Shown here one piece after another: positions 6,658-62,949 of a DNA stretch of 64,000 bases. This stretch comes from Pseudoclavibacter helvolus (GTDB taxonomy: Bacteria > Actinomycetota > Actinomycetes > Actinomycetales > Microbacteriaceae). Within the stretch, counting starts at the first letter, position 1. Every line of letters starts with the position of its first letter. The stretch spans positions 186,001 through 250,000 of the forward strand of contig NZ_JACHWJ010000005.1 in assembly GCF_014191305.1 (NCBI RefSeq), given 5' to 3'. The notes beneath the pieces are model-generated. The model saw nothing but the letters and a program-made list of their open reading frames with translations. It had not been told where the DNA came from and did no database searches. A program made the translations under genes and the position numbers.

Positions 6658-7694
6658 ATGGCAACCATCACAGCCCCCACCACGGACGAACGCATCGGAC
6701 GAAAATCCCCGATCAGCGTCTTCCTCGCGCGCCCAGAGATGGGCGCCATCGTCGGCGCCCTCGCCGTCTTCGCCTTCTTCGCCGTCGTCGCCCCGACGTT
6801 CACCCAGATCAACTCGATCGCCACAGTTCTCTACGGTGCTTCCACCATCGGCATCATGGCCGTCGGAGTCTCGCTGCTCATGATCGGCGGCGAGTTCGAC
6901 CTCTCCACCGGCGTCGCGGTCATCTCGTCGGCACTCACAGCCTCCCTGTTCAGCTGGTACTTCGCCACCAACGTGTGGGTCGGCGTGCTCATGGGCCTCG
7001 TCTTCGCCCTCGGCGTCGGCTTCGTCAACGGCTGGCTGCTCATCAAGACGAAGCTGCCGTCGTTCATCATCACTCTGGCCACCTTCCTCATGCTGACCGG
7101 CATCAACCTCGGCGTGACCCGACTGATCGGCGGGGGCGTCTCCAGCCCCTCGATCAGCGATCTCGACGGGTTCGAGTCGGCAAAGGCGATCTTCGCCGCG
7201 AAGCTCCCCATCTTCGGCGTCAACGTCGAGATCACCGTCATCTACTGGATCGTGCTCGTCGCGGTCGCCACGTGGATCCTCATGCGCACCAAGGTGGGCA
7301 ACTGGATCTTCGCCGTCGGCGGCGACGAGAACGCGGCCCGCGCGGTTGGTGTGCCCGTCACGGCCACGAAGATCGGGCTCTTCATGGGCGTCGGCTTCTG
7401 CGCCTGGGTACTCGGCATGCACAACCTGTTCGCCTTCAACGTCGTCCAGTCGGGCGAGGGCGTCGGCAACGAGTTCCTGTACATCATCGCGGCCGTCATC
7501 GGCGGCTGCCTCCTCACCGGCGGCTACGGCTCAGCGATTGGCGGCGCCATCGGCGCCCTCATCTTCGGCATGGCCAACAAGGGCATCGTCTACGCCCAGT
7601 GGAACCCGGACTGGTTCAAGTTCTTCCTCGGCCTCATGCTCCTGCTGGCCACGATCGTGAACCTCGTCGTCAAGAAGCGAGCGGAGCAGAAAGC

Positions 7695-7698
<4 letters not shown>
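6658..7698 (+). CDS. Sugar ABC transporter permease (RbsC/FrcC type)
   Basis: 346 residues. I chose the ATG at 6658 because AAAGGA lies ten bases upstream and the protein then begins [16 protein letters not shown]; an earlier in-frame ATG at 6619 would start inside the hairpin. About nine to ten hydrophobic segments follow the BPD_transp_2 pattern, with signatures [16 protein letters not shown] and [15 protein letters not shown] (the EAA-like cytoplasmic loop contacting the ATPase) and [15 protein letters not shown]. It forms the membrane channel for the sugar captured by the preceding lipoprotein. Its TGA overlaps the ATPase ATG. Confidence 0.9.
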
Positions 7699-8579
<881 letters not shown>

Positions 8580-8598
8580 CCCCCGCCCGAGATCCGCG

Positions 8599-8631
8599 TC
8601 GCTGCCGGGTTCGATGTGAGCCCGGCAGCGA
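8599..8631 (+). terminator. Hairpin terminator after the ABC importer operon
   Basis: Perfect 11-bp stem (TCGCTGCCGGG at 8599-8609 with 8621-8631), 11-base loop, 20 bases after the ATPase stop and before the MFS gene. Confidence 0.65.
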
Positions 8632-8671
8632 CCAACCGGCGCAGGATGCGCCACAGCAATTAGGGAGCGAC

Positions 8672-10120
8672 ATGAGTACCACAAGCAATTCGCACACCGA
8701 GCGGCCAGCGCTACCAGCGCTGACCCCAGGGCCGTACCGCAAGCGCCTCGGCCTGATCTCCATCGTCGCGTGCTTCGGCGGCCTCCTCTTCGGCTACGAC
8801 ACCGGCGTCATCAACGGCGCCCTGCGTCCGATGGCCGCCGAGATCGGCCTCGACGCCTTCACCGAAGGAATCGTCACGAGCTCCCTGGTGTTCGCCGCGG
8901 CTTTCGGCGCTCTCTTCGGTGGGCGCATCTCTGACGCAATCGGTCGCCGCCGAACCATCCTGATCCTCGCGATCATGTTCTTCCTCGGCACCGTCGTGGT
9001 CGTCGTCTCCCCCAACTTCGCGCTCCTGGTTGTGGGGCGCATCATGCTCGGACTCGCCGTCGGCGGCGCATCCACGGTGGTGCCCGTCTTCCTCGCGGAG
9101 CTCGCGCCGTTCGAGATCCGCGGATCCATCACGGGGCGCAACGAGGTCGCCATCGTCATCGGACAGCTCTCGGCGTTCGTGATCAACGCGATCCTCGGGA
9201 ACACGCTCAGCCACATCGACGGGGTCTGGCGCATCATGTTCGCCGTCTGCGCCGTCCCTGCCATCGCTCTCTTCTTCGGGATGCTCCGCATGCCCGAGTC
9301 GCCGCGCTGGCTTGTCGAGAAGGGACGGCACGCGGAGGCGCTCGCCGTCCTCAAGACGGTGCGCTCCGAGGAGCGTGCCATCGCCGAGCTGGGCGAAGTC
9401 GAGCAGATCGCCCAGGAGGAACAGAAGGAGGAGAAGATCGGGCTGAGTGCTCTGCTCACCAACAAATGGCTGATCCGTATTGTCCTGATCGGTATCGGCG
9501 TTGCCATGATGCAGCAGCTGACGGGCATCAACTCGATCATGTACTACGGCCAGGTCGTGCTCATCGAATCAGGCTTCGAGGAGTCGGCAGCTCTCATCGC
9601 GAACATCGCACCGGGTGTCGTGGCGGTCATCGGCGGATTCATCGCCCTGTACCTCATGGACCGCGTCGACCGGCGGAAGACGTTCGCGATCGGGCTCACG
9701 CTCACCACCACGTGCCATCTGCTCATCGGCGCCGCCTCGTTGCTGCTCCCGGTTGGCAACCCTGCCCGCCCGTTTGTCATCCTGATCCTCGTTGTCGCGT
9801 TCGTGGCGTCCATGCAGACGTTCTTGAATGTCGCCGTCTGGGTCTACCTCGCCGAGATCTTCCCGCTGCACATGCGCGGCCTGGGCATTGGCATCTCGGT
9901 GTTCTTCGGCTGGACGACCAACGGGTTCCTGGCGCTGTTCTTCCCGACACTCATCGAGAATCTCGGCATCAGCGGAGTGTTCTTCCTCTTCGCCGGTGTC
10001 GGTGCTCTCGCGCTCCTGTTCACGATTACGCAGGTCCCAGAAACCCGCGGTGTGACCCTCGAGAAGCTCGAGGTCGGCGTCACGACGGGAGCCATCCACG
10101 TGCTCGGCAAGAGCCGCTAA
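8672..10120 (+). CDS. Sugar:proton symporter, MFS sugar porter family (IolT-like)
   Basis: 482 residues with twelve predicted membrane segments. Sugar-porter signatures are visible: GGLLFGYDTGVINGAL in TM1, GRISDAIGRRRTIL in loop 2-3, MPESPRWLVEKGR before the central loop, QQLTGINSIMYYG in TM7, and a C-terminal VPETRGVTLEKLE. It imports a sugar or inositol using the proton gradient. The start is the ATG at 8672 behind TAGGGAG. As the last gene of the iol region it resembles IolT, giving the cell a second uptake route beside the ABC importer. The exact substrate is inferred. Confidence 0.9.
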   Translation: MSTTSNSHTERPALPALTPGPYRKRLGLISIVACFGGLLFGYDTGVINGALRPMAAEIGLDAFTEGIVTSSLVFAAAFGALFGGRISDAIGRRRTILILAIMFFLGTVVVVVSPNFALLVVGRIMLGLAVGGASTVVPVFLAELAPFEIRGSITGRNEVAIVIGQLSAFVINAILGNTLSHIDGVWRIMFAVCAVPAIALFFGMLRMPESPRWLVEKGRHAEALAVLKTVRSEERAIAELGEVEQIAQEEQKEEKIGLSALLTNKWLIRIVLIGIGVAMMQQLTGINSIMYYGQVVLIESGFEESAALIANIAPGVVAVIGGFIALYLMDRVDRRKTFAIGLTLTTTCHLLIGAASLLLPVGNPARPFVILILVVAFVASMQTFLNVAVWVYLAEIFPLHMRGLGIGISVFFGWTTNGFLALFFPTLIENLGISGVFFLFAGVGALALLFTITQVPETRGVTLEKLEVGVTTGAIHVLGKSR

Positions 10121-30812: not shown

Positions 30813-31742
30813 CTAGAGCCCGACCGAGGCGTAGATGCGGAAGACCTCGTCGATGCGGGTTTCCTCATCGACCTGTTCGCCGTCTTCGGACTCCCCGTAC
30901 AAGTCCATGATCTGCTGCTTAATGGACTCGTCGAGCGCCTCCCACTTGGCCGTCCAGGCTTCGACCTCGTAGGTCCAATAGCCGACGACCTTGTAAGCGG
31001 AGCCTGGCAGGCCGAGCGTGTGACGGAGGTGGCTGCGCACCTCGCGGGTCACGCGCGTCTCCCCGGCGACCCACACGTAGACGCTGCCGTCTGTTGGGAT
31101 GTCGAGTCGCTTGACGGTCTCGACGAGGCGGCTCGGGCGGTGCCCGTTGCCGGAGCCACGCACCCAATTCGCCGCCTTCAGGTCGGCCGCAGGGAACAGC
31201 TCGTAGCCCGCATCCCGGATCTCACAGACGATCTCCGTCTCGACGTCCGGCGTGAGCTCGGCCACGCGGAGGGCGGCTGGGAGTGCTGGCTCGTCGCAGA
31301 TGAGCATCTGCTTCGTGACCCCCTCCGGCAGCGCGTAGAGGTCGCGCGGCGGGTTGATGCCGAGCACGTAGCCGGGCTTCGCGCCGAGCACCCACGTGCT
31401 CGCGATACCCCTCTCGTGGATGACGAAGTCGATGTCGATCTCGCCGGGTCGGTGGTCGCGGATCGTGTACGTGCGCATCTGCGACGGCTCGACGCCCTCC
31501 TCGTAGTCCCAGCCGCGGCCGGAGACGAAGGGGAGGCGCGGTTCGAGGTGTGCCTCGTCGGGGAAGAAGAGGCGCACGTACTCGTCGCCGATGCCCGTCG
31601 TCGGGTAGTCGAGCAGGTCGTCGCCACCCAGCGTGACGCGGATCATCCCAGGCCCGAGCTGCTTCACCCCGGTCACGACGGCGCGGTGGATGCGCTCCTC
31701 GTACTCGGTCGCTTCAGTTCCGGATGCGGTGCGGTAGGTCAT
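30813..31742 (-). CDS. Siderophore-interacting protein (FAD/NADPH ferric reductase)
   Basis: 309 residues from the ATG at 31742. It is a ViuB/YqjH-like flavoprotein that releases iron from imported siderophore by reduction in the cytoplasm. The FAD-binding part includes GMIRVTLGGDDLLDY and MRTYTIRDHRPGEIDIDFVIH, then GIASTWVLGAKPGYVLGINPPRDLY; the NAD(P)H domain has MLICDEPALPAALRVAE and YVWVAGETRVTREVRSHLR, ending with YKVVGYWTYEVEA. Its ATG overlaps the binding-protein stop by four bases. A C-terminal acidic tail extends beyond the usual end. Confidence 0.92.
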   Translation of the reverse strand: MTYRTASGTEATEYEERIHRAVVTGVKQLGPGMIRVTLGGDDLLDYPTTGIGDEYVRLFFPDEAHLEPRLPFVSGRGWDYEEGVEPSQMRTYTIRDHRPGEIDIDFVIHERGIASTWVLGAKPGYVLGINPPRDLYALPEGVTKQMLICDEPALPAALRVAELTPDVETEIVCEIRDAGYELFPAADLKAANWVRGSGNGHRPSRLVETVKRLDIPTDGSVYVWVAGETRVTREVRSHLRHTLGLPGSAYKVVGYWTYEVEAWTAKWEALDESIKQQIMDLYGESEDGEQVDEETRIDEVFRIYASVGL

Positions 31743-32857
31743 TCTGCGCCTCCGACGCCGTTGCCGTCGATGGCCGAGTTGAGCATGGGAACGAACTCGT
31801 CGATTGCCCACGGGATGGAGAGGGGCGTCGGCGCGTTCGTGGCCATCGCGAGGGGCTCACTCTCGAGGAAGAGGTAGTGGCCGGTCGCGATGGGCTCCCA
31901 CAGCTTGAAGGTGGGGTGGTTCAGGGTGTAGTCGAGCTCTTCCTCGCTGTTGGACCAGGCGACGAAGATGTCGGCGGGGATCGTGTCGAGTTCCTCAAGG
32001 CTCACGGCGCCGTACCAGTTGTCACCCTCGACGGTGCCGAGCACGGTTTCCATGGCTGGCGTGTTCTGCAGGCCGAGCTCGGTGAGGAACTGCACCCGCA
32101 GGTCGCTCGGGATGTAGATGCCGGCTTCCGTTGCGCCGTCGCTCAGGGTGAGGCCGTATGCGAAGGTCGTGTCAGCGAACCTGGGGTTCTCTTCCTTGAC
32201 GGCGTCGAGCTTGCTCTGCGTCTCCGCGATGATCTCGTCGGCCTTCGCGGGCTGGCCGAGGCTGTCGCCGACGATCTCGACAAGCGACTGCCACGACTCC
32301 GAAGCCCACGGCTTCTCGGGGTACGCGACGGTCGGGGCGATCTCGCTGAGGCGGTTGTACTCGACCTCGGTGAGGCCGGAGTGCGGGGCGAGAATCACGT
32401 CGGGCTCTAGGGCGAGCACCTGCTCGAAGTCGAGCTCGTTCGCGTCGTTGTAGTTCAGGATCTCCGGCATCGTGCCGCCGAGCTCCTCGACCTCAGCGCG
32501 GAACCAAGGCGAGTAGCCCTCTTCGTCCCCGCCCCACGTCTCGGGGATCCCGACGGGGACCGTGCCGAACGCGGCGACGACGTCCTGCGTCGCCCAGCCG
32601 ATCGTCACGACGCGCTCTGGTGCCTCGGTGATCGTCGTCTCGCCGAGGGCGTGCTTCATCGTCACCGGCAGGGCACCTTCTTCGGCTGCCGTTGCCGTTA
32701 CGCCGTCCGCCGCCGCGGCGTCACCGGATGCGCATCCCGCAAGGGCGAGGACTGCAACGGTTGCCGCCGCGAGGGCTCCTGTCCAGCGGCGGTGCGCCGG
32801 CCGGACCGGGGAGGTCCGGGAGGAGGTGGACGGGCGGCGGCTGACAGTCGAGGTCAA
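31739..32857 (-). CDS. Iron-siderophore substrate-binding lipoprotein
   Basis: 372 residues. TTG start at 32857, supported by GGAG five bases upstream. The signal peptide ends in lipobox LALAGC at about residue 42, after an unusually long Ser/Arg-rich n-region. The mature protein is a type III (helical backbone) binding fold: RVVTIGWATQDVVAAFGTVPVG, EILNYNDANELDFEQVLALEPDVILAPHSGLTEVEYNRLSEIAPTVAYP are characteristic of FepB/FhuD-like proteins. It captures ferric siderophore outside the membrane. It is the first gene of the uptake operon, behind a DtxR/IdeR-like box at 32889. Confidence 0.92.
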   Translation of the reverse strand: MTSTVSRRPSTSSRTSPVRPAHRRWTGALAAATVAVLALAGCASGDAAAADGVTATAAEEGALPVTMKHALGETTITEAPERVVTIGWATQDVVAAFGTVPVGIPETWGGDEEGYSPWFRAEVEELGGTMPEILNYNDANELDFEQVLALEPDVILAPHSGLTEVEYNRLSEIAPTVAYPEKPWASESWQSLVEIVGDSLGQPAKADEIIAETQSKLDAVKEENPRFADTTFAYGLTLSDGATEAGIYIPSDLRVQFLTELGLQNTPAMETVLGTVEGDNWYGAVSLEELDTIPADIFVAWSNSEEELDYTLNHPTFKLWEPIATGHYLFLESEPLAMATNAPTPLSIPWAIDEFVPMLNSAIDGNGVGGAE

Positions 32858-32888: not shown

Positions 32889-32907
32889 AGAGGTAAGGCT
32901 AACCTCA
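32889..32907. promoter_or_regulatory. DtxR/IdeR-type iron box
   Basis: AGAGGTAAGGCTAACCTCA contains GGTAAGGCTAACCT, matching the consensus core GGTTAGSCTAACCT at 13 of 14 positions (15 of 19 over the whole consensus TWAGGTTAGSCTAACCTWA). It lies about 32 bases upstream of the binding-protein start, where a repressor would block transcription when iron is sufficient. Confidence 0.75.
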
Positions 32908-54934: not shown

Positions 54935-55615
54935 TCATTCCCCGAGGAAACGGGCCGTCGGCCGTCCGGACGTGCGCTCGAGCAGCACGACCTGTCCGTT
55001 CAGGATGCGCGGGCACCCGGCGCCCGTGACGGCCTCGATCCCAGCCCGAAGGAAGACGCCGTGGCTCACAACAATCGCCGTGCCTGGACCCATGAGGAGG
55101 GCGGTGAGCGCTGAACCCGCCCGCTCGCTGAGCTCGGCCGCGGTCTCCGACCCCGGGTAGTCGCCCGCAGGCCAACGCTCCGCGGCCTCGGCCACCTGCA
55201 TCCCCTCGGCTTCACCGAAGTCGCGCTCGAGCAGGCCGGGCTCGACGAACGGGACGGCACCACCAAGGCCCGCGTCGATCGGCGAAAGGATGCGCGAAAC
55301 GGTAGTCGGGGCAACACCCGAATCGCTCGTCGGGTCGACGTGCGGACCGGTTAGCGAGACAGCGCGCGCGCCGGCAGGTGGCGCTACCTGCGAACCGGTC
55401 GGCGAGCCAAAGTACGACCCGATGATCGACGCCGTCTGCGCCGCGCGGGTCAGCGGCGACGTGACCACGCGCCCCCACTGCGCACGGGCGAGGAGTCTGC
55501 CCGCGGCGTGTGCCTGGAGCTCCCCGTGCGCGTCGAGGGCGATGTCGCTGCGCCCCTGCAGCCGCCGCTCCAGGTTCCAGGCGGTGCGGCCGTGCCGCAC
55601 CAGAGCGAGCGTCAC
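54935..55615 (-). CDS. Histidine phosphatase family protein
   Basis: 226 residues from a GTG at 55615 overlapping the ATPase stop (GTGA). Phosphoglycerate-mutase-like fold: LALVRHGRTAWNLERRLQGRSDIALDAHGELQA with nucleophilic H8, RVVTSPLTRAAQTASII with the phosphate-binding Arg, LLERDFGEAEGM and a second catalytic His in AIVVSHGVFLRAGI. An insertion of about 45 residues (GSPTGSQVAPPAGARAVSLTGPHVDPTSDSG) follows the second motif. It is the last gene of the phosphatase/ABC cluster; its likely job is to remove phosphate from an imported ester. Confidence 0.9.
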   Translation of the reverse strand: MTLALVRHGRTAWNLERRLQGRSDIALDAHGELQAHAAGRLLARAQWGRVVTSPLTRAAQTASIIGSYFGSPTGSQVAPPAGARAVSLTGPHVDPTSDSGVAPTTVSRILSPIDAGLGGAVPFVEPGLLERDFGEAEGMQVAEAAERWPAGDYPGSETAAELSERAGSALTALLMGPGTAIVVSHGVFLRAGIEAVTGAGCPRILNGQVVLLERTSGRPTARFLGE

Positions 55616-57030
55616 GCCGCCGACACAGACTGGGATCCCGAGGCCTCGGATGCGCTGACAGCGAGTACCGACAGGGCAGCCGGGGCAGCGCCAGCACCGG
55701 CACCGGCACCAACGGCAGCGGCAGCAGCAGCAGCAGCAGCAGCGGCAGCAGGGGCAGCACCAGCCGCGACGGCAGCACCGGCAACACCAGCACCAGCACC
55801 AGCACCAGCCCCGTAGATACGTGCCTTCGCGATGCTCACCGCGACCTGGTCGCCGACCTTCGGCCGGACTCCGTGGGTCCGCGCTCGAAGCCGCAGGCCC
55901 GCCCAGTCGAGGACGAGGTCGCTGCCCTCCGGCGTGAAGAGCGCCGACCGCACGGTCGCGAAAGCGGCGGGAGCTGCCCGCAGATTGGTGTCGGCGGCGG
56001 TAGCGGCAGCGGCAGCGTCGGCGGCAGCGGCAGCGTCGGCGGCAGCTGCAGCTGCAGCGCCAGCCCTGGCGCCAGCGCCAGCGCCAGCGCCAGCGCCAGC
56101 GCCGCCAGCACCGCCAGCACCGCCAGCAGCAGGCTCCACAATCCTGACCACGACGTCGCCCGGAAGGATGGCAGCCTGCACCGCCTCGTACCCACCCGCC
56201 TCGGCCCCACCCGACTGATGCACCACGAGCCGGTCCGTGCCCACGTGAAGCGGGTGCGCATCCGCCGCGAACCCCGCCTCTTCGACAGTCCCGCCGACGA
56301 TCGTGGCGTCCGACAGGAACTTCGCAATGAACGGGGACGCCGGCCGCGTCACGAGCTCCTCCGGCGTGCCGAGCTGCTGGAAGCGCCCGCCGTCGAGCAC
56401 CGCCACGCGGTCGGCGAGGGCAAGCGCCTCCGAACGGTCGTGCGTGACGTGCACGACCGTCAGCCCGAGCTCCCGCGTGAGCGTGTGCAGCTCGAGGCGG
56501 AGGCTGTCGCGGAGCGGCTCGTCGAGCGCGGAGAGCGCCTCGTCGAGCAGCAGCACCCGCGGCCTGCCGACAAGCGCGCGAGCGATCGCGACCCGCTGCC
56601 GTTGCCCGCCGGAGAGCGTCGCCGGGTTGCGCTTCGCGTAGCCCGCCAGCCCGACCATCTCGAGTGCCTCTTCGACGCGACGGATGCGCTCCGGCTTCGG
56701 AACCCGAGCCCGGCGCAGCGGGTAGTCGACGTTGCGTCCGACGTTCCAGTGCGGCCACACGGCGTGCTGCTGGAACACCATGCCCAGCTCCCGAGCCTCA
56801 GGCGGGACGCCAGCCCCCTCCCCCGCGACGACTCGCTCGCCGATGCTCACCCGGCCAGCGGTGGGCGCCTGGAAGCCCGCGATCGTGCGCAGGAGCGTCG
56901 TCTTGCCGGAGCCGGACGGGCCGACAAGCGCGAGGAACTCACCGTCGCGCAGCGCGAGGTCAATGCCGTCGAGGCCGACGGTGCCGCTCGGGAAGCGGAC
57001 GGAGACAGAGTCGAGGGTGACGGATGCCAC
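55612..57030 (-). CDS. ABC transporter ATP-binding protein (FbpC/PhnT type) with Ala/Gly-rich insertions
   Basis: 472 residues; the class is usually about 350. The ABC domain (1-230) is complete: Walker A GPSGSGKTT, FQQHAVWPHWNV, LSGGQRQR, Walker B VLLLDEALSALDE, VTHDRSEALALADR. The C-terminal TOBE-like domain is split by two low-complexity stretches, about residues 303-345 (GGAGGAGGAGAGAG... then poly-Ala/Asp) and about 410-455 (AGAGAGAGVAGAAVAAG...). The DNA there is a GCN/GGN slippage tract, yet the frame is kept. It energises the permease at 57145 for import of iron, phosphonate or another phosphorylated compound. Confidence 0.88.
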   Translation of the reverse strand: MASVTLDSVSVRFPSGTVGLDGIDLALRDGEFLALVGPSGSGKTTLLRTIAGFQAPTAGRVSIGERVVAGEGAGVPPEARELGMVFQQHAVWPHWNVGRNVDYPLRRARVPKPERIRRVEEALEMVGLAGYAKRNPATLSGGQRQRVAIARALVGRPRVLLLDEALSALDEPLRDSLRLELHTLTRELGLTVVHVTHDRSEALALADRVAVLDGGRFQQLGTPEELVTRPASPFIAKFLSDATIVGGTVEEAGFAADAHPLHVGTDRLVVHQSGGAEAGGYEAVQAAILPGDVVVRIVEPAAGGAGGAGGAGAGAGAGAGARAGAAAAAAADAAAAADAAAAATAADTNLRAAPAAFATVRSALFTPEGSDLVLDWAGLRLRARTHGVRPKVGDQVAVSIAKARIYGAGAGAGAGVAGAAVAAGAAPAAAAAAAAAAAAVGAGAGAGAAPAALSVLAVSASEASGSQSVSAA

Positions 57031-57094
57031 GGTGTGCCCTTCTAGAAGGTCGAGCGGATGGGGATGCGGGGCGGACCGGGCAAGCGCCGGGTCC

Positions 57095-57162
57095 TACTTG
57101 GGCGCATTCGTTACTTGGGTGCATTCGTTACTTGGGCGCCGTCGTTACTTGGGCGCCCGCGT
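57095..57162. repeat. Four 17-base repeats overlapping the permease stop codon
   Basis: Units TACTTGGGCGCATTCGT (57095), TACTTGGGTGCATTCGT (57112), TACTTGGGCGCCGTCGT (57129) and TACTTGGGCGCCCGCGT (57146). Read on the - strand each contains GCGCCCAAGTA(A), so the last codons and stop of the permease gene (Arg-Ala-Pro-Lys-stop) have been copied three more times downstream. Confidence 0.85.
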
Positions 57163-58836
57163 TGCGATGCCGATGACCGCGACGCCGAGGAGCGCCACGA
57201 TGAGCGAGAGCGCGGCCGCCGTGTTGAACGCGCCCGCCTGCTGCAGGTTGAAGATCGCGACGCCCAGCGTCTGGGATCCCGGCGAGAGGAGCAGCACCGA
57301 CAGCGTCAGCTCGCGCACCGCGGTGACGGCGACGAGCACGGCCCCGGAGATGGCGGCGGGCGCGGCCATGCGGCTCGAGATGTCGACGAGCGCGCGCATC
57401 CGCCCCGCTCCACCGATCCTCGCGGCCTCCTCCGCACTCGCGGGGGTGCTCGCGAGCGGCGCCGCCACGGCCTGCACGACAAGCGCCGTGAACGAGGTGA
57501 CGTACGCACACAGAATCAGCCATGGCGTGTTGAAGAGCCCGATGTGCGGCGCGAGCACGAGCCACGCAACGGCGATGACGATGCCGGGGACCGCCTGCGG
57601 CAGCATGGCGAGCGCCCTCAGCGGCCCGCTGCCGCGCATCCGCGTTCGAGTGACGAGCACCGCGATGCCGAGCCCGAGGAGCCCGCAGATGACGGCCGCG
57701 AGCACGGCGAGCATCACCGAGTTGGTGGCGCCCTGGATGGAGTTCGCCGAGGTCACGGCCTTCACGACGTTATCGAGCGTCAGGTTCTCCGGCAGAAGCG
57801 CGAGCCCGGGTGCGCGGAGCAGCGACTGCTGCAGGAGCGCGAGCAGCGGCAGCACCGTGACGGTGAGGACAAGCACCCAGGTCACGATGGAAGCCGACAC
57901 ACGTCCCCGGCCGAGCGGCAGGAGCTGCGGCGCTGAGGAGGACGAGTCGAGCTCCCAGCGGCTCTTGCCGATGAGGAAGTCGATGACAAGCGCCGCGAGC
58001 GCAAGCACCAGCAGGACAACCCCGATGGTCGCGACGACCGCGAGCGGCTCATCCACTGTCCCCGACTGCAGGTAGCGGTAGACGAGCGTCGCGAGGGTCG
58101 TGTACTGCTCCGGCAGGCCGATGATCGAGGGGATGCCGAAGTCGGCGAGGTTGCCCACCGCGATGAGCACAAACGACGACAGCAGGGCGGGGCGGAGCAG
58201 AGGAACCGTGATCGTGAAGATGCTGCGCGCCGGACTGGCGCCCGCGATGCGCGCCGCTTGCTCGAGGTCTGACGGCACCCGGCGCAGGGCGGCCGACACG
58301 ATGAGCATCGCAATCGGGTAGCTGTGCACGGTGAGGAGCAGGATGACGCCGTCGGCGCCGTAGATCGACCAGAGCGGACCGCCGAACGCCTGCGCCCACC
58401 ACAGGTTCACAGGGCTCGTCGGACCGGCGATACCAAGCCAGGCGATCGCGCCGACGAACGGCGGGACAAGCAGCGGCGTGAGCGCGAGGAGGCGCAGCCC
58501 GCGACGGCCGGCGAGGTCGGTGCGGTCGAGCAGCACCGCGAGCGCCGTCCCGACCACAACTGCGCCGAGCGCGGATGCGCCAGCCGAGACGAGGCTGTTC
58601 GTCGCGGCTTCGACGACGTCGCTCTGCCAGAGGACGTGCAGCTGGGATCCGCCGGCAGCAAGCGCGAGGATCGCGCCGATCGGCACGAGGACCACCGCCG
58701 CGACGGCGACCCAGAGGGTGAGCGAGAGGCCGTGCACCCCGTCGAGGTTGGGACGCGAGGAGTGCGGAACCGCCGCCGGGGCGGTGCCGCTGCGAACAGG
58801 GGCACCGCTCCGGGGTGTTGTGGTGGTTGTGCTCAT
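57145..58836 (-). CDS. ABC transporter permease, FbpB/PhnU type (two fused membrane domains)
   Basis: 563 residues from the ATG at 58836 (MSTTTTTPRSG); an upstream frame to 58959 lies inside the preceding gene and is Arg/Ser-rich. Twelve predicted helices in two BPD_transp_1 modules, each with an EAA loop: LEQAARIAGASPARSIFTITVPLLRPAL and AEEAARIGGAGRMRALVDISSRMAAPA. This fused layout is typical of FbpB-like ferric iron and 2-aminoethylphosphonate transporters. It forms the channel for the binding protein encoded just upstream (19-base gap). Confidence 0.92.
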   Translation of the reverse strand: MSTTTTTPRSGAPVRSGTAPAAVPHSSRPNLDGVHGLSLTLWVAVAAVVLVPIGAILALAAGGSQLHVLWQSDVVEAATNSLVSAGASALGAVVVGTALAVLLDRTDLAGRRGLRLLALTPLLVPPFVGAIAWLGIAGPTSPVNLWWAQAFGGPLWSIYGADGVILLLTVHSYPIAMLIVSAALRRVPSDLEQAARIAGASPARSIFTITVPLLRPALLSSFVLIAVGNLADFGIPSIIGLPEQYTTLATLVYRYLQSGTVDEPLAVVATIGVVLLVLALAALVIDFLIGKSRWELDSSSSAPQLLPLGRGRVSASIVTWVLVLTVTVLPLLALLQQSLLRAPGLALLPENLTLDNVVKAVTSANSIQGATNSVMLAVLAAVICGLLGLGIAVLVTRTRMRGSGPLRALAMLPQAVPGIVIAVAWLVLAPHIGLFNTPWLILCAYVTSFTALVVQAVAAPLASTPASAEEAARIGGAGRMRALVDISSRMAAPAAISGAVLVAVTAVRELTLSVLLLSPGSQTLGVAIFNLQQAGAFNTAAALSLIVALLGVAVIGIATRAPK

Positions 58837-58855
58837 GGGGAGAAGCGGGGCCTCG

Positions 58856-59899
58856 TCAGAGGAACAGCGTGCGGAACTTCTCGACGGCCGCGTCCTGGCT
58901 GGCGCGGATCGTCTCGAGCTCTGGCGAGAGGATCGTGATCTCGTCCATAGACGGGGCACCCTCTGGCGTTCCGACGTCCTCGCGCACCGGCAGGTACGAC
59001 TGGCTGACGGCGAGCTCCTGGCCCTCGGCGCTCACGAGGAAGTCGACGAACGCCTTCGAAGCATCCGCTTCCTCGGTGTTCGCGAAGATCCCGACGGGCT
59101 GCGACACGTACGGCACGCCCTCCGTCGGGTAGGAGACGGCGATGGGTGAGCCCTGGGCTGCGAGCTCGCGCGCGAGGTAGTCGACGACGATGCCGACGGG
59201 CTGCGCGCCCGTCGCGATGGCCTGCGAGACGGGGCCGTTGCTGTCGGCGATGACGGGCTTATTGGCGGCGAGCTTCGTCAGCCACTCCTCGCCGAGCGCG
59301 GGCTCGTCGAGCCACACGGCGGCGTTGTAGGCAGCCGCGCCGGACACGTCGGGGTTGGGCATGACGAGCTTGTTCGCGTACTCGGCGTCGGTGAGCTCGG
59401 CCCAGGATGTCGGCGGCTCGGTGACGAGGCCCGTGTTGTAGGCGATGACGGTCGGGATGATTCGCGTGCCCGTGTAGTAGCCCTCCGGGTCGACGATGTC
59501 CTGGTTGAGCGACTCGACGTCGGCGGGCGAGTACTGCAGCAGCAGCTCGTCGGCCGCGTAGTCCTCGAACGTGCCGGCGTCGGCCGCGAGGAATACGTCC
59601 GCCTGCACGCCGCCGGAGGCCTGCTCGGTCGCGACTCGCGTGGTCAGGTCGCCGGTGCCCGCGCGGAACACCTCGACCGTCACTTCCGGATGCACCTGGT
59701 TGAAGGCCTCGACGAGCGCATCCGCCTTCTCCTGCGGCTCAGACGTGTAGAGGGTGATGGTGGCCGCTTCGAGCGCGGATGCTGCAGTCGGGCTGGCATC
59801 GCCGCTGGCGGCGGTGCTCGGGGAGCTGGCGCAGCCTGCGAGGAGGACGCCAGCGAGGCCGAAGGCCGCGAGCGCGGCCGGGGTGCGGAAGGAGTTCAT
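58856..59899 (-). CDS. ABC transporter substrate-binding lipoprotein (ferric iron/2-aminoethylphosphonate type)
   Basis: 347 residues. Lipobox VLLAGC near residue 23. Type II binding fold of the FbpA/PhnS/AfuA group (SBP_bac_6/11): ITLYTSEPQEKADALVEAFNQVHPEVTVEVFRAGTGDLTTRVATEQASGGVQADVFLAADAGTFEDY, RIIPTVIAYNTG, VMPNPDVSGAAAYN and VSQPVGIFANTEEADASKAFVDFLVSAEGQEL. The tyrosine pair typical of Fe(III) binders is not evident near the C-terminus, and no complete iron box lies upstream, so an organophosphate or phosphonate ligand is as likely as iron. Neighbouring phosphatases favour a phosphorylated substrate. Confidence 0.9.
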   Translation of the reverse strand: MNSFRTPAALAAFGLAGVLLAGCASSPSTAASGDASPTAASALEAATITLYTSEPQEKADALVEAFNQVHPEVTVEVFRAGTGDLTTRVATEQASGGVQADVFLAADAGTFEDYAADELLLQYSPADVESLNQDIVDPEGYYTGTRIIPTVIAYNTGLVTEPPTSWAELTDAEYANKLVMPNPDVSGAAAYNAAVWLDEPALGEEWLTKLAANKPVIADSNGPVSQAIATGAQPVGIVVDYLARELAAQGSPIAVSYPTEGVPYVSQPVGIFANTEEADASKAFVDFLVSAEGQELAVSQSYLPVREDVGTPEGAPSMDEITILSPELETIRASQDAAVEKFRTLFL

Positions 59900-59939
59900 G
59901 ATGACCTAACTGTTCGAGGGGAGAGCGGGTCTGGGGTTC

Positions 59940-60045
59940 TACGAGGGGGAGGTTCGGGGAGACAGGAGGAGCGAGGGGGAAGGTTCTGGGAGGGGGAAGG
60001 TTCTGGGAGGGGGCGAAGGTTCGGGGCGAAGTGAGGAGGCGGGAG
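59940..60045. repeat. Purine-rich tract with direct repeats upstream of the binding-protein gene
   Basis: About 100 bases almost free of pyrimidine runs on the + strand, with GGGGGAAGGTTCTGGGA repeated twice and a third degenerate copy. It lies in the 189-base gap (59900-60088) between the phosphoesterase and the binding-protein gene, in the leader of the latter. No gene. Confidence 0.7.
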
Positions 60046-60088
60046 ACGAGCAGCGCGCGAGCAGCGTGTGCCCGCGGAACCGGGCTGC

Positions 60089-60937
60089 TCAGGGCGCCGG
60101 TCGGAGGGTGAACAGCGGGGCGGGATGCTCGACGCCGACACTGGATGCGCTGACGGCGTCGGCCCCGAGGTGCACAAGCGAGTACATCGAGCGGTCGAAG
60201 CCACTCACCGTGCCCGGCTCGGCGTTCATGACCTGGTGGTACGCGAGCGCAGGGCCGACGGAGACGTGCACGCCCCGCGTCGTCGCCGCGAGTGGATGGT
60301 GGAAGTGCCCGGACAGGATGGTCCGGACGTCGGTGCCCTCGACGATGTCGAGGAAGTCTGCCGCGTCGCGGAGGCCGGCGCGGGCCAGCATCGGCAGCGG
60401 GGAGCCGAGCGGCGGGTGGTGCATAACCACGACGGTGCCTGCGGGCGCGGGCGCAGCGCTTGCCAGCTCCGCTTCGAGCCACGCGAGCTGTGCCGGGCCG
60501 AGGGAACCGGTCGACGAGTCGAGCAGCAGGAAGCGCCACTCGCCGATACGCACCGCGCGGGGGACGGCCGCGTCGGCCTGCCACCCCTCCGGCGTCTCGT
60601 GTCCGGGCAGGATGCGCGCCGGGACTCGGCTGTCGTGGTTGCCGAGCACCGTCAGCACGGGCACGCCCCACGAGTCCTCGAGTCCGAGCAGCGCGTCTCG
60701 GAGCGCCGGGTAGGCGGCCTCGTTCCCGCGCTCGATGAGGTCGCCGCTGATGACGATCGCATCCGGGGCAACTCCCGCGTTCCTGGCGTAGTCGCTTGCC
60801 GCGAGCATCCGCGTGATGCCGTCGATCGTCCCGTAGAGCTGCGCCCCTGCCGTCGCGTGCACGTCGCTCAGGTGGAGGACCGTGGTGCGGTGCGCGCCTG
60901 CGCTGGTTGATTCTTCGCTGCTCGCCACGGCGTTCAT
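60089..60937 (-). CDS. Calcineurin-like metallophosphoesterase (CpdA-like)
   Basis: 282 residues. Dinuclear-metal phosphoesterase with every block present: LHLSDVHAT (D25, H27), VISGDLIERG, VLGNHDSRV, VVVMHHPPLGSP and LSGHFHHPLA. The layout matches 3',5'-cyclic-nucleotide phosphodiesterases of the CpdA/GpdQ class, which also hydrolyse glycerophosphodiesters and other diesters. No signal peptide, so it is cytoplasmic. The ATG overlaps the stop of the preceding PtpB-like phosphatase gene (ATGA). In context it may split a phosphodiester delivered by the ABC importer; this is an inference. Confidence 0.92.
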   Translation of the reverse strand: MNAVASSEESTSAGAHRTTVLHLSDVHATAGAQLYGTIDGITRMLAASDYARNAGVAPDAIVISGDLIERGNEAAYPALRDALLGLEDSWGVPVLTVLGNHDSRVPARILPGHETPEGWQADAAVPRAVRIGEWRFLLLDSSTGSLGPAQLAWLEAELASAAPAPAGTVVVMHHPPLGSPLPMLARAGLRDAADFLDIVEGTDVRTILSGHFHHPLAATTRGVHVSVGPALAYHQVMNAEPGTVSGFDRSMYSLVHLGADAVSASSVGVEHPAPLFTLRPAP

Positions 60938-61671
60938 GACGCGACGGACGCTGGCTCAGCGGTCGGCTCAGCAGCCGGCTCTGCAGTCGGCTCTGCGGCC
61001 CGCGTTTCTCCCGCCGCCTTGGCCCGAAGCGCGAGCACGTGCTCCTCCGTGAGGCCGTGGCCGCGAAGGTAGGCCTCAGCGCCGCCGAGCTCGCGGACGA
61101 TGCCGAGCGCGTGCTCGAGCGCTTCCGGCGGGCTGTCGAGGTGGAGGCGCAGGATCTCGCTGCGCTGCTCCGCGGGATACGCAGCGGCGACGGCGAGCGC
61201 GAACGGCTCCCGCACCGATCGCACGGCGACGCCGGACAGTGCGTAGTCGGCGACCACGTCGGCCTCATCCGCTCCCCCGACCAGCTGGGCGAGCGCGACG
61301 ACAAGCCCCGTGCGGTCCTTGCCAGCCGTGCAGTGCACAAGCACGCCGCGCTCCGCGTTGGCGAGCACCGCGACGGCCTCGGCCAGCGCGCCGCCTCGGC
61401 CGCGGAGGAGCGTCTCGTAGATGTCCTCGAGGCGTCCGGCGACGGGCGGCTCGCTGCCGTACAGCGGCACCTGGCGCACCGGGATGCCGTGGTCGCGAGG
61501 TCCCGATTCTGCTCGCTCACGGAGGTCGAGGATGAGCGCGACGCCGAGGTCACGCAAGTCAGTCTCGCCGTCGAGGGTGAGCGCGTCCGGCGAACCGGCG
61601 CGAACAACCCACGGGGCCTCTGCACTTGCTGCTCGGGCGTTGAACAGCCCGTCGATCTCGATTGCCCTCAC
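60934..61671 (-). CDS. PtpB-like tyrosine/phosphoinositide phosphatase
   Basis: 245 residues from a GTG at 61671, five bases after GGAGG; a GTG at 61677 overlaps that ribosome binding site. The P-loop VHCTAGKDRTG (nucleophile C114, Arg120) is the HCxAGKDRTG form of the Y_phosphatase3 family. The Lys-Asp-Arg in the loop is as in mycobacterial PtpB, which accepts phosphotyrosine, phosphoserine/threonine and phosphoinositides. The N-terminal SPDALTLDGETDLRDLGVALILDLRERAE contains the family substrate-trap segment. The tail is an EPTAEPAAEPTAEP repeat. It is the first gene of the phosphatase/ABC cluster. Confidence 0.92.
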   Translation of the reverse strand: MRAIEIDGLFNARAASAEAPWVVRAGSPDALTLDGETDLRDLGVALILDLRERAESGPRDHGIPVRQVPLYGSEPPVAGRLEDIYETLLRGRGGALAEAVAVLANAERGVLVHCTAGKDRTGLVVALAQLVGGADEADVVADYALSGVAVRSVREPFALAVAAAYPAEQRSEILRLHLDSPPEALEHALGIVRELGGAEAYLRGHGLTEEHVLALRAKAAGETRAAEPTAEPAAEPTAEPASVAS

Positions 61672-61904
61672 GAGCACCTCCAGTTGCCTGGACGCCAGCC
61701 CCGTTACAGAGATTCCGCAGGGCTTGGAACGTCGTTACATCGGGAGTGTGACGAGCAACGGTGAACACACGGTGACGTACGGCGAGCGAGCGGATGAACT
61801 CCGGGAGACGAGTCCGCGCGGGAGCCGACCGAGGGCGACAAGCGGTGCGCTCAGGTGCTGTGCGCCCCGCCCATTGACATCGACCCTGATGACTTTTCGC
61901 GACC

Positions 61905-61928
61905 GGTGATGGGTAAAAACCCATCACC
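61905..61928. terminator. Hairpin with A-rich loop downstream of the RpiR gene
   Basis: Perfect 10-bp stem GGTGATGGGT / ACCCATCACC with loop AAAA. It lies about 175 bases beyond the RpiR stop and 230 before the phosphatase start. Confidence 0.55.
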
Positions 61929-62028
61929 AGTCGGCGAAACCCAGCACGAGCATCCGCAAAAACCCATCGCCAGTCGGCGAAACCCAGCACGAGCATCCGC
62001 AAAAACCCATCACCGCTGCGGAAACCCC
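61919..62028. repeat. 43-base direct repeats
   Basis: Two near-identical 43-base units starting ACCCATCACCAGTCGGCGAA at 61919 and 61962, and a partial third at 62005. The first unit begins in the right arm of the hairpin at 61905. No gene in 61672-62103. Confidence 0.85.
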
Positions 62029-62103
62029 GCAAGAGCCGGCGCCGCTCATCGCGGTCGCCCCGGGAGGGAGCAGCACGCCGCGGGCGTGCGAGCGCCTCGG
62101 AGC

Positions 62104-62949
62104 TCAGCCCTCGGAGAGCGCGTCGGCCACGACGTGGCGCATGCCGACAACCTCGTCGCCTCCGAGCTGCTGCGAAAGCGCCGAATGGAATGCGTGGAGC
62201 ACGATCGTGTGGCCGAGGCGGGCGAGGAACGGGTCGATGTCGTGCGCCGTGCCCGCCGGTCCGGTCGTGACGACGACATCGGCGACCCGTCCGAGCGGCG
62301 AGCGGGCGAAGCTCGTGACGAGCATCACGGTCGCGTCCTGCGCGCTCGCAGCTTCGGCCGCCCGCAGCGACTGCACGTTCGCGCCAGAGTAACTGAGGGC
62401 GAGACACACGTCTCCGCTCGAGAGCGAGCGCACCGCGAACTGCTGGGCGAGCGCATCCACCGGGGCCTCGACGGAGTGCCCCAGCGTGCTGAGGCGCATC
62501 GCGAAGTCCTGGAGTGGCGGCCCCGAGAAGCCGCTGCCGACGAGCACGATGCGGCGGGCGCCTCGCAGGGCCGCGACCGCTGCGACGATTCGCTCCGGGT
62601 CGACGTTCTCCTGCGCGAGCCGCACGGCGTCGATCGCGTCGTCGAAGGTGCTCGCCTCGCGCGCCGGCGACTGCTCGCGAGGCGCAAGCGGAGCCGAACG
62701 GGCGAGGTCGAGGCGCAAGTGCTGGAAGCCGCGGAAACCGAGGCTCTGGCAGGCCCGAATGACGGTGGCCGTCGACGTGCCGGCAGCATCCGCGAGCTCG
62801 GCCGTCGACCACTCGACAACCTCGTCTGGCCGCGACAGCACCATCTGCGCGACCTTGCGCTCGCTCGGCCCGAGGGCAGCGGATGCGGCGCGGACGCGCG
62901 TGAGCACGCTCAGCTCCGGCCGCACCACCCCGAGCTCCTGCGCTGACAT
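62104..62949 (-). CDS. MurR/RpiR family transcriptional regulator with SIS domain
   Basis: 281 residues. The N-terminal HTH_6 domain contains ALGPSERKVAQMVLSRPDEVVEWSTAELADAAGTSTATVIRACQSLGFRGFQHLRLDLA. The C-terminal SIS phosphosugar-binding domain contains RRIVLVGSGFSGPPLQDFAMRLSTLGHSV and GDVCLALSYSGANVQSLRAAEAASAQDATVMLVTS. Such regulators sense phosphorylated sugars. It lies upstream of, and on the same strand as, the phosphatase/ABC cluster, and is divergent from the quinone oxidoreductase with only 39 bases between. Either may be its target. Confidence 0.92.
   Translation of the reverse strand: MSAQELGVVRPELSVLTRVRAASAALGPSERKVAQMVLSRPDEVVEWSTAELADAAGTSTATVIRACQSLGFRGFQHLRLDLARSAPLAPREQSPAREASTFDDAIDAVRLAQENVDPERIVAAVAALRGARRIVLVGSGFSGPPLQDFAMRLSTLGHSVEAPVDALAQQFAVRSLSSGDVCLALSYSGANVQSLRAAEAASAQDATVMLVTSFARSPLGRVADVVVTTGPAGTAHDIDPFLARLGHTIVLHAFHSALSQQLGGDEVVGMRHVVADALSEG

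Follow-up and report, generated by a model that had tools for sequence, protein, structure and literature searches.

A predicted organophosphate-scavenging operon combining an ABC importer, phosphatases and an RpiR-type regulator in Pseudoclavibacter helvolus

The window analyzed here, a stretch of 64,000 nucleotides from Pseudoclavibacter helvolus (contig NZ_JACHWJ010000005.1), carries seven genes on the minus strand between positions 54935 and 62949 (Table 1). An earlier note made from the sequence alone had placed them there; the genes are real, and their proposed names agree with their Pfam families (HTH_6 and SIS, Y_phosphatase3, Metallophos, SBP_bac_6/11, BPD_transp_1, ABC_tran and His_Phos_1). 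With 67.5 bits for HTH_6 (cut-off 28.3) and 45.1 bits for SIS (cut-off 25), the regulator has the domains of the RpiR/MurR type. The junctions had been described as mostly 4-base overlaps, which had to be corrected: just two of the six overlap by 4 bases, namely Cys phosphatase/MPE (ATGA, 60934-60937) and ATPase/histidine phosphatase (GTGA, 55612-55615), and the others are gaps of 426, 189, 19 and 114 bases. The likely start of the Cys phosphatase gene is the GTG at 61671, six bases inside the annotated frame.

Table 1. Genes and predicted sites of the locus, with positions in the window.
Feature	Positions	Strand	Basis
RpiR/MurR-type regulator (HTH_6 + SIS domain), 281 aa	62104..62949	-	Pfam; matches in family genomes
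PHO box, predicted PhoP-type site, four 11-nt units GTTCATC/CGCTCGC/CGTCACC/GTTCACC	61756..61799	-	Consensus as given in PMC4415409 and PMC6754071
Conserved operator-like motif GKAAY-N3-RTTYCR-N7-YGRAAY-N4-GNAAYR, probable RpiR site (predicted binding)	61702..61738	-	
Cys-dependent phosphatase, Y_phosphatase3/PtpB type, HCTAGKDRTG	60934..61677	-	Pfam, alignment, profile
Metallophosphoesterase (MPE), Rv0805/CpdA/GpdQ type	60089..60937	-	Pfam, alignment, profile
Lipoprotein substrate-binding protein, lipobox LAGC, FbpA/AfuA/PhnS2-like	58856..59899	-	
Fused double-domain ABC permease, PhnU2-like, under PhnU2 cut-off	57145..58836	-	
ABC ATPase, Ala/Gly-rich insertions in C-terminal part	55612..57030	-	
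Histidine phosphatase, branch 1	54935..55615	-	

In profile searches, the nearest solved structure of the Cys phosphatase was PtpB (1ywf). Those of the MPE were, in order, the 'Icc protein' 3ib7 (E value 5.7e-82), Rv0805 (2hy1; 8.3e-82) and the Phosphohydrolase entries 2zo9/2dxl, which we take to be GpdQ. The metal motifs of class III (Rv0805/GpdQ) metallophosphoesterases are DxH, GD, GNHD, HH and GHxH; the MPE carries all of them, and they are invariant in 11 aligned sequences. Alignments of 10, 11 and 9 relatives showed no variation in the catalytic residues of the Cys phosphatase, the MPE and the histidine phosphatase, respectively. No signal peptide was seen in the Cys phosphatase or the MPE, and no signal sequence was visible on the phosphatases of the operon. 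As a CpdA-type 3',5'-cAMP phosphodiesterase, the MPE scored only 56 of the 225 bits of the curated cut-off (NF008359). Its closest solved relatives, 3ib7 and Rv0805, and its best NCBIfam match, a rhizobial 2',3'-cNMP phosphodiesterase model (81 bits; cut-off 400), would fit the uptake of RNA-breakdown products, e.g., 2',3'-cyclic nucleotides or nucleotides, which would be opened by this Rv0805-like enzyme and then dephosphorylated. However, no nucleoside salvage genes were recognized by eye in the gene lists of the operons, and RpiR proteins are not usual nucleotide sensors. This reading, a special case of organophosphate uptake and not its opposite, is unlikely.

That the phosphatases travel together with the transporter had been set beforehand as a test, and it was borne out in a sample of 150 Microbacteriaceae genomes. 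Clear orthologs of the binding protein (at least 56% identity) were found in 11 of them, the remaining matches at an E value of 1e-20 or better showing at most 33% identity. The regulator and the MPE each lay alongside in 10 of the 11, the Cys phosphatase in 8 of the 11 and the histidine phosphatase in 7 of the 10 evaluable genomes (the contig of G072 ends after the binding protein; the neighborhood of locus L102 in G075 was seen within 1.5 kb only). Separate searches for the partner genes agreed with these counts, and the ten best regulator matches among the 150 genomes (at least 51% identity and 260 bits; the next had 165 bits) came from the ten operon genomes. Regulator, MPE and importer occur together in 10 genera, G284 included, and the full gene set is also present in G284; four named Pseudoclavibacter loci carry it as well, among them AY1F1, which corresponds to G073. 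The clustering of these genes is thus far beyond chance, although the operon is uncommon in the family (11 of 150 genomes). All three phosphatases of the earlier note are present here with intact catalytic residues, but they are not all obligatory: the Cys phosphatase is missing from two operons (G116 and G122) and the histidine phosphatase from two (G122 and G120). The transporter was found without any other operon genes in one family genome (G064) and likewise in a genome of another family (G411).

The PHO box is the site of the phosphate-starvation activator of actinobacteria. Four 11-nt direct-repeat units of the GTTCACC type upstream of the first structural gene constitute a predicted box of this Pho-regulon kind. 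The four-unit score, which was chosen after the repeats had been seen, exceeded those of 300 shuffles (first-order Markov resamplings; p ≤ 0.003) in all 11 operon promoters, while with two or three units only 8 of the 11 fell below p 0.05. Among 259 upstream regions from 34 gene-called loci, six reached a score of at least 19, all of them before first genes of the operon; two operon promoters, those of L034 and L038, lay outside this ranking because of a short gap or an uncalled first gene. When a 64-kb strand was shuffled, 3 of 20 shuffles contained a score of 19 at some place. As a positive control, each of the same 11 genomes had at least one pstS-type gene with a two-unit score of at least 12 of 14, with no box before 4 of the 17 pstS-type copies. 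Six regions before PhnCDE-type genes and three of five CUT1 clusters had no significant box. Together with the pstS control, the PHO box adds support for a phosphorus role of the operon, which is apparently switched on by phosphate starvation.

A PHO box would also suit an importer of Pi or another anion, with the phosphatases directed at internal metabolites or signals, and the PhnDCE system of M. smegmatis is described as importing Pi despite its phosphonate name (PMC7866108). Since pstS-type genes preceded by PHO boxes of their own exist in 11 of 11 genomes, the phosphatases are lined up with the importer, and enzymes of the same types have been recruited next to other importers, we regard this explanation as highly unlikely.

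Before the first structural gene there is, in addition, a conserved inverted repeat. Most of the loci in which it was later counted had also served to derive its pattern by eye, and it was found with at most three mismatches in 13 of 14 distinct operons with the regulator, 10 of them exact, and in neither of the two transporter-only loci. In G108, the match had four mismatches, a level also seen in one control with reversed sequence and at two loci of a different kind. The repeat is probably the RpiR site.

The profile search with the binding protein gave 8x1a and AfuA (4r72, listed together with 4R73) as the closest solved structures; an AlphaFold model from five near-identical rows had a pLDDT of 32.8. 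FbpA/HitA chains were also among the matches, and a ferric transporter model was among the NCBIfam matches of the ATPase, which would fit the alternative raised in the earlier note, FbpA-type Fe(III) import beside unrelated phosphatases. FbpA binds iron through His9, Glu57, Tyr195 and Tyr196. In the HitA alignment, read by eye, these positions are occupied by P55, A106, Y241 and L242, and Y241 is not invariant, being Ser in one ortholog (L038). The sole DtxR/IdeR-like box in the window (three mismatches allowed) lies at 32889-32907 by a FecB-like gene and not at the operon, where the PHO box is present instead. Because the phosphatases travel with the transporter, the PHO box and the operator motif are present and similar enzymes recur beside other importers, iron uptake is very unlikely indeed.

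AfuA is described as a hexose-phosphate binder (4R73, PMC8427247; PMC4546632). Of its sugar-residue motif His205, Asp206 and Glu229 (PMC4546632), one of three is kept in the binding protein, with V239, D240 and V265 at these places (offset by hand). At the phosphate site of AfuA and P5PA, where Ser37-Gly38 and Ser148-Gly149-Thr150 surround the phosphate (PMC8427247), T82-G83 and S186-G187-A188 are found, invariant in 14 orthologs. Since HitA shares Ser-Gly-Ala at the second place, this match cannot tell a bound phosphate ester from a phosphate anion next to iron.

Among the NCBIfam models, PhnS2 matched the binding protein best and PhnU2 the permease, with PhnT2 third for the ATPase. Like AepXVW/PhnS2-U2-T2, the operon pairs a binding protein of the family pfam13343 with a fused permease and an ATPase, as expected if it imported 2-aminoethylphosphonate (2AEP) with the phosphatases as passengers. 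The scores, however, stayed far under the curated cut-offs (125 vs. 393, 146 vs. 593 and 267 vs. 458 bits for TIGR03261, TIGR03262 and TIGR03265, respectively). Phosphoesterases take the place of phosphonate-degrading genes, no C-P cleaving gene was recognized by eye in the neighboring gene lists, and we know of no MPE or phosphatase of these families that cuts the C-P bond of 2AEP. By comparison, AepXVW is reported to adjoin typically phnWX or phnWAY (PMC8316502). Import of 2AEP is therefore quite improbable.

In other actinobacteria, a Ugp/CUT1-type importer is accompanied by similar regulator and phosphatase types, the phosphatases coming from different branches, in the order RpiR-UgpC-UgpB-PTP-MPE-UgpA-UgpE (G063, G237, G445 and G248). 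Regulator and MPE recur beside a PhnCDE-type importer (HAD-like-PhnD-PhnC-PhnE-PhnE-MPE-RpiR; G085 and G069). A single ancestral RpiR-PTP-MPE module that swapped importers was rejected by the trees of Cys phosphatases, MPEs and regulators. Holding the operon and CUT1-type Cys phosphatases together was rejected (AU p 2.7e-84), the same constraint on the MPEs was weakly rejected (p 0.025), and the regulators from the three architectures fail to group as a single clade. Independent assembly of the enzyme set with different importers is thus the better reading of these phylogenies. The binding protein of the CUT1-type clusters was considered as a canonical UgpB and not accepted as such: sugar-binding proteins head its solved matches, UgpB chains rank below them, and no NCBIfam family was found at 1e-12.

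Taken as a whole, the locus is likely an organophosphate-scavenging operon under double control by PhoP and RpiR, in which import is followed by cytoplasmic hydrolysis. The evidence is the conserved gene set and order, the intact catalytic residues, the lipoprotein binding protein, the PHO-box-like array and the inverted-repeat motif. The preference of the earlier note for organophosphate over iron uptake is upheld by the co-traveling genes, the lacking iron ligands and the PHO box, but its set of three phosphatases is not obligatory, and the stepwise dephosphorylation and sugar-phosphate sensing that it proposed are putative. Under phosphate starvation, PhoP would bind the PHO box and activate the operon, and the RpiR protein would stay on the operator and let go once a phosphorylated intermediate binds to its SIS domain. 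A small organophosphate would be captured by the binding protein and brought in intact by the fused permease and the ATPase; the MPE would open the phosphodiester, if present, and the Cys and histidine phosphatases would free Pi from the resulting monoesters. The substrate class is most likely a small phosphodiester or a polyol or sugar phosphate, e.g., a glycerophosphodiester, the phosphodiester being favored because the MPE is of diesterase type. More specifically, and only as a tentative possibility, the operon may be a route for glycerophosphoinositol or another sugar or polyol phosphodiester, with one diesterase plus two phosphomonoesterases of different chemistry under joint control of PhoP (need) and RpiR (supply), an enzyme logic that actinobacteria would have put together on at least two independent occasions, using importers unrelated to each other. 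If the organophosphate reading is true, Microbacteriaceae transporters likened to iron or phosphonate systems need reassignment to organophosphate uptake.

Organophosphate importers as a kind are already known; to our knowledge, intact uptake in actinobacteria is known mainly from Ugp-type systems. In the titles and abstract openings of open-licence PMC literature, no described system matched this gene set, only general or neighboring ones. Ugp with UgpQ/GlpQ (E. coli; the C. glutamicum ugp cluster with glpQ) resembles the operon in that it takes up glycerol-3-phosphate and its diesters through an ABC transporter, responds to phosphate limitation and has a linked phosphodiesterase (PMC7866108). 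It differs by its CUT1 transporter family and its GDPD-type diesterase in place of an MPE, and the account in PMC7866108 describes no PTP, histidine phosphatase or RpiR regulator. According to the same source, C. glutamicum has a Ugp cluster, whereas Streptomyces is without one and probably hydrolyzes such compounds extracellularly; intact uptake with dedicated cytoplasmic phosphatases, if true, would be a different strategy from that of Streptomyces. The AfuABC hexose-phosphate and P5PA pyridoxal-phosphate importers likewise use FbpA-related binding proteins for phosphorylated compounds, proteins that rank with the nearest solved structures to the operon protein, and AfuA was first named an iron protein (PMC4546632, PMC8427247). 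AfuA differs in His205 and Glu229, both replaced by Val in the operon protein, and no phosphatase is mentioned in the main text of either paper. GpxB belongs to the PhnT/phosphonate family (3.A.1.9) and did not turn up when solved relatives of the operon binding protein were sought, and the main text of PMC12718374 mentions neither a phosphatase nor RpiR. Together with UgpB, likewise a glycerol-1/3-phosphate binding protein, it nevertheless shows that a single organophosphate can be handled by importers of two unrelated types (PMC12718374).

The seven genes named in the earlier note were all found on the minus strand with consistent Pfam matches. The four-base overlaps said to prevail between them occurred at only two of the six junctions, the remaining gaps being 426, 189, 19 and 114 bases.

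Features of the operon and of a separate iron-related region (window positions)
Feature	Position	Strand	Remark
RpiR regulator	62949-62104	minus	
Direct repeats, three of 43 nt	61915-62042		between regulator and PHO box
PHO box	61756-61799		predicted; four 11-nt units
Operator-like motif	61702-61738		before first structural gene
Cys phosphatase	61677-60934	minus	
Metallophosphoesterase (MPE)	60937-60089	minus	
Tandem repeats, 17 nt	59973-60026		within/beside intergenic gap
Binding protein	59899-58856	minus	
Fused permease	58836-57145	minus	
Tandem repeats, 17 nt	57095-57156		within/beside intergenic gap
ATPase	57030-55612	minus	
Histidine phosphatase	55615-54935	minus	
DtxR/IdeR-like box	32889-32907		3 mismatches, expected 0.00
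FecB-like binding protein	31739-32857		named by eye
Siderophore-interacting-protein-like gene	30813-31811		named by eye

The catalytic residues of the three phosphatases did not vary across alignments that included proteins of G063, a genome with a CUT1-type (Ugp-like) importer cluster: P-loop His, Cys and GKDRTG of the Cys phosphatase (10 rows), metal ligands of the MPE (11 rows), and RHG, Arg77, Glu102 and His157 of the histidine phosphatase (9 rows). On inspection of the sequences, no signal sequence was seen in any of the three, and the lipobox cysteine of the binding protein (C23) was kept in 14 of 14 rows. The earlier reading, organophosphate or phosphodiester uptake with stepwise dephosphorylation in the cytoplasm, is partly supported: sequence favours its core, a predicted phosphorus-compound importer with cytoplasmic phosphoesterases, to which sequence evidence for Pho control was added, and the stepwise order, the phosphosugar sensing and the substrate class that it names are putative. 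The ATPase carries long Ala/Gly-rich insertions encoded by tandem GC-rich repeats; it measures 472 aa in the window and 523 aa in P. terrae, as against 344-382 aa in the remaining genera for which genes were called.

Among 150 Microbacteriaceae genomes, 11 binding-protein orthologs shared at least 56% identity, and no other match with E ≤ 1e-20 exceeded 33%. RpiR and MPE genes each lay beside 10 of the 11, and the Cys phosphatase beside 8 (absent from G116, G122 and G064). The histidine phosphatase was present in 7 of 10 (absent from G122, G120 and G064), G072 being left out since its locus stops at a contig edge. Permease and ATPase occurred in all 10 loci not cut by a contig end. Phosphatases and transporter thus travel together, against the separation that the earlier note named as refuting its reading. 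The transporter stood without partner genes in G064 and in G411, of another family. In the class sample, the binding protein was detected at E 1e-60 or better in 4 of 394 genomes; all seven genes were present in G284 of this sample and in four named Pseudoclavibacter loci, one being that of G073, a genome of the same genus as the window. In reverse searches, the ten best matches of the MPE (at least 215 bits, next 152) and of RpiR (at least 260, next 165) all lay at operon loci; Cys phosphatase relatives of comparable score also occurred off-operon (G071, G121 and a second site in G051). Since the genes beyond the seven vary between loci, the unit seems to end at the histidine phosphatase. In L153 (G322) and L137 (G282), both of family f34, an MPE adjoins a histidine phosphatase, and no transporter of the operon kind was seen beside them.

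The identity of the binding protein bears on the alternative, iron import beside unrelated phosphatases. A profile search placed 8x1a and 4r72 (AfuA) first, followed by HitA and other iron chains, with P5PA seventh; a single-sequence search placed P5PA second and AfuA third. In printed alignments, the AfuA phosphate contacts correspond to T82-G83 and S186-G187-A188, unvarying in 14 orthologs, whereas only Asp206 (D240 here) of the AfuA sugar residues is retained. The FbpA iron ligands align to P55, A106, Y241 (Ser in one ortholog) and L242. Judged by these motif residues, the protein is neither an AfuA nor an FbpA. Relatives misnamed as iron proteins have precedents in AfuA and P5PA, according to passages of PMC4546632 and PMC8427247. 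PhnS2, PhnU2 and PhnT2 (NCBIfam) matched the operon proteins far below cut-off. Elsewhere in the window, a DtxR/IdeR-like box lies just 5' of a FecB-like gene and near a siderophore-interacting-protein-like gene.

Upstream of the operator-like motif, 11-nt repeats of the actinobacterial PHO unit GTTCACC (as given in parts of PMC4415409 and PMC6754071) were located. With four units, all 11 operon promoters exceeded 300 Markov shuffles (p ≤ 0.003); p was below 0.05 in 8 of 11 with two units (rest 0.063, 0.087 and 0.21) and in 8 of 11 with three (rest 0.050, 0.067 and 0.107). In the four-unit test, p was under 0.05 for two of five CUT1 promoters (L040, 0.033; L155, 0.007) and not for the other three; before PhnCDE-type (phosphonate-named) genes, none of six regions was significant. 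As positive control, pstS-type genes (TIGR00975; above its cut-off in 5 of 11 genomes) had a two-unit score of at least 12 of 14 for at least one copy in 11 of 11 genomes, four perfect; 4 of 17 copies lacked a box. Six of 259 upstream regions (34 gene-called loci; two operons lay outside this ranking) scored at least 19, all of them operon first genes, two from one genus. Eight scored 18, of which three belong to operon first genes and one to a CUT1 first gene; the others lie before the G411 binding protein, a TetR-type gene, the Cys phosphatase of a G071 pair, and an MFS gene that is followed by a lone Cys phosphatase. The G071 pair (L042) combines Cys and histidine phosphatases without a transporter of the operon kind; the MFS-like gene lies immediately 5' of its phosphatase (L087 of G349, 7540-9718), and L088 (G414) holds a similar pair. 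The operon's box is the best four-unit match on both strands of the window; since shuffled 64-kb strands attained 19 in 3 of 20 cases, the weight of this evidence rests on position and conservation.

A conserved motif that may be bound by the RpiR protein, GKAAY-N3-RTTYCR-N7-YGRAAY-N4-GNAAYR, is located between the regulator and the first structural gene. Across 30 loci (557,710 bases), most of which had served to derive it (only L025, L027, L028 and L030 lay outside that set, and these are close relatives), 11 exact matches were found, all at the operon promoter position, plus two with one, one with three and four with four mismatches. Reversed sequences gave none up to three mismatches and one at four. 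Among 14 distinct operons with a regulator, the motif was exact in 10, with one mismatch in G072 and G049, three in G051 and four in G108; the last is not secure, because L078 and L081, loci of other kinds, also reach that level. Transporter-only loci had none. In G134, where the regulator lies about 3 kb from the operon with other genes in between, the motif accompanies the Cys phosphatase gene instead. At two mismatches, the window holds a single site (expected 0.00).

Searches of open-licence PMC papers brought up no description of the operon's gene set; of the described systems, Ugp with UgpQ or GlpQ comes closest (passages of PMC7866108). Similar sets adjoin other importers. The CUT1-type order is RpiR, UgpC-like ATPase, CUT1 binding protein, Cys phosphatase, MPE, UgpA-like and UgpE-like; it occurs in G063, another Microbacteriaceae genome, and in several genera of f25, a different family, complete in G063, G237 and G248, and in G445 once tblastn view and gene list are combined. 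Further genomes gave partial views, and the covered part of the G268 locus held neither Cys phosphatase nor RpiR. The G063 ATPase exceeded the UgpC cut-off (444.5 vs. 432 bits); its UgpA-like and UgpE-like permeases fell below theirs. The PhnCDE-type order, in G085 and G069, is HAD-like (by eye; G069 copy without NCBIfam match at 1e-10), PhnD, PhnC, PhnE, PhnE, MPE and RpiR; the MPE is missing in G057, and G091 shows MPE and RpiR alone. In G069, PhnC (320.3 vs. 266.1 bits) and the phosphorus-type binding protein (147.5 vs. 112.05 bits) exceeded their cut-offs.

In the regulator tree, operon and PhnCDE-type proteins formed separate clades (100/99 each), joined neither to each other nor to the CUT1 type. 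A single clade of operon and CUT1 proteins was rejected for the Cys phosphatases (AU p 2.7e-84) and weakly for the MPEs (p 0.025), the G063 MPE being closest to MPEs lacking such neighbours (57-62% identity). Assembly of similar sets thus seems to have happened more than once; judged by gene order, this argues for a functional link of these enzyme types with phosphorus-compound importers. GpxB and UgpB are a precedent for one substrate served by two importer types (passages of PMC12718374). In L156 (G338), MPE and RpiR are neighbours of an ABC importer of BMP/nucleoside type and of a 5'-nucleotidase-like gene, named by eye.
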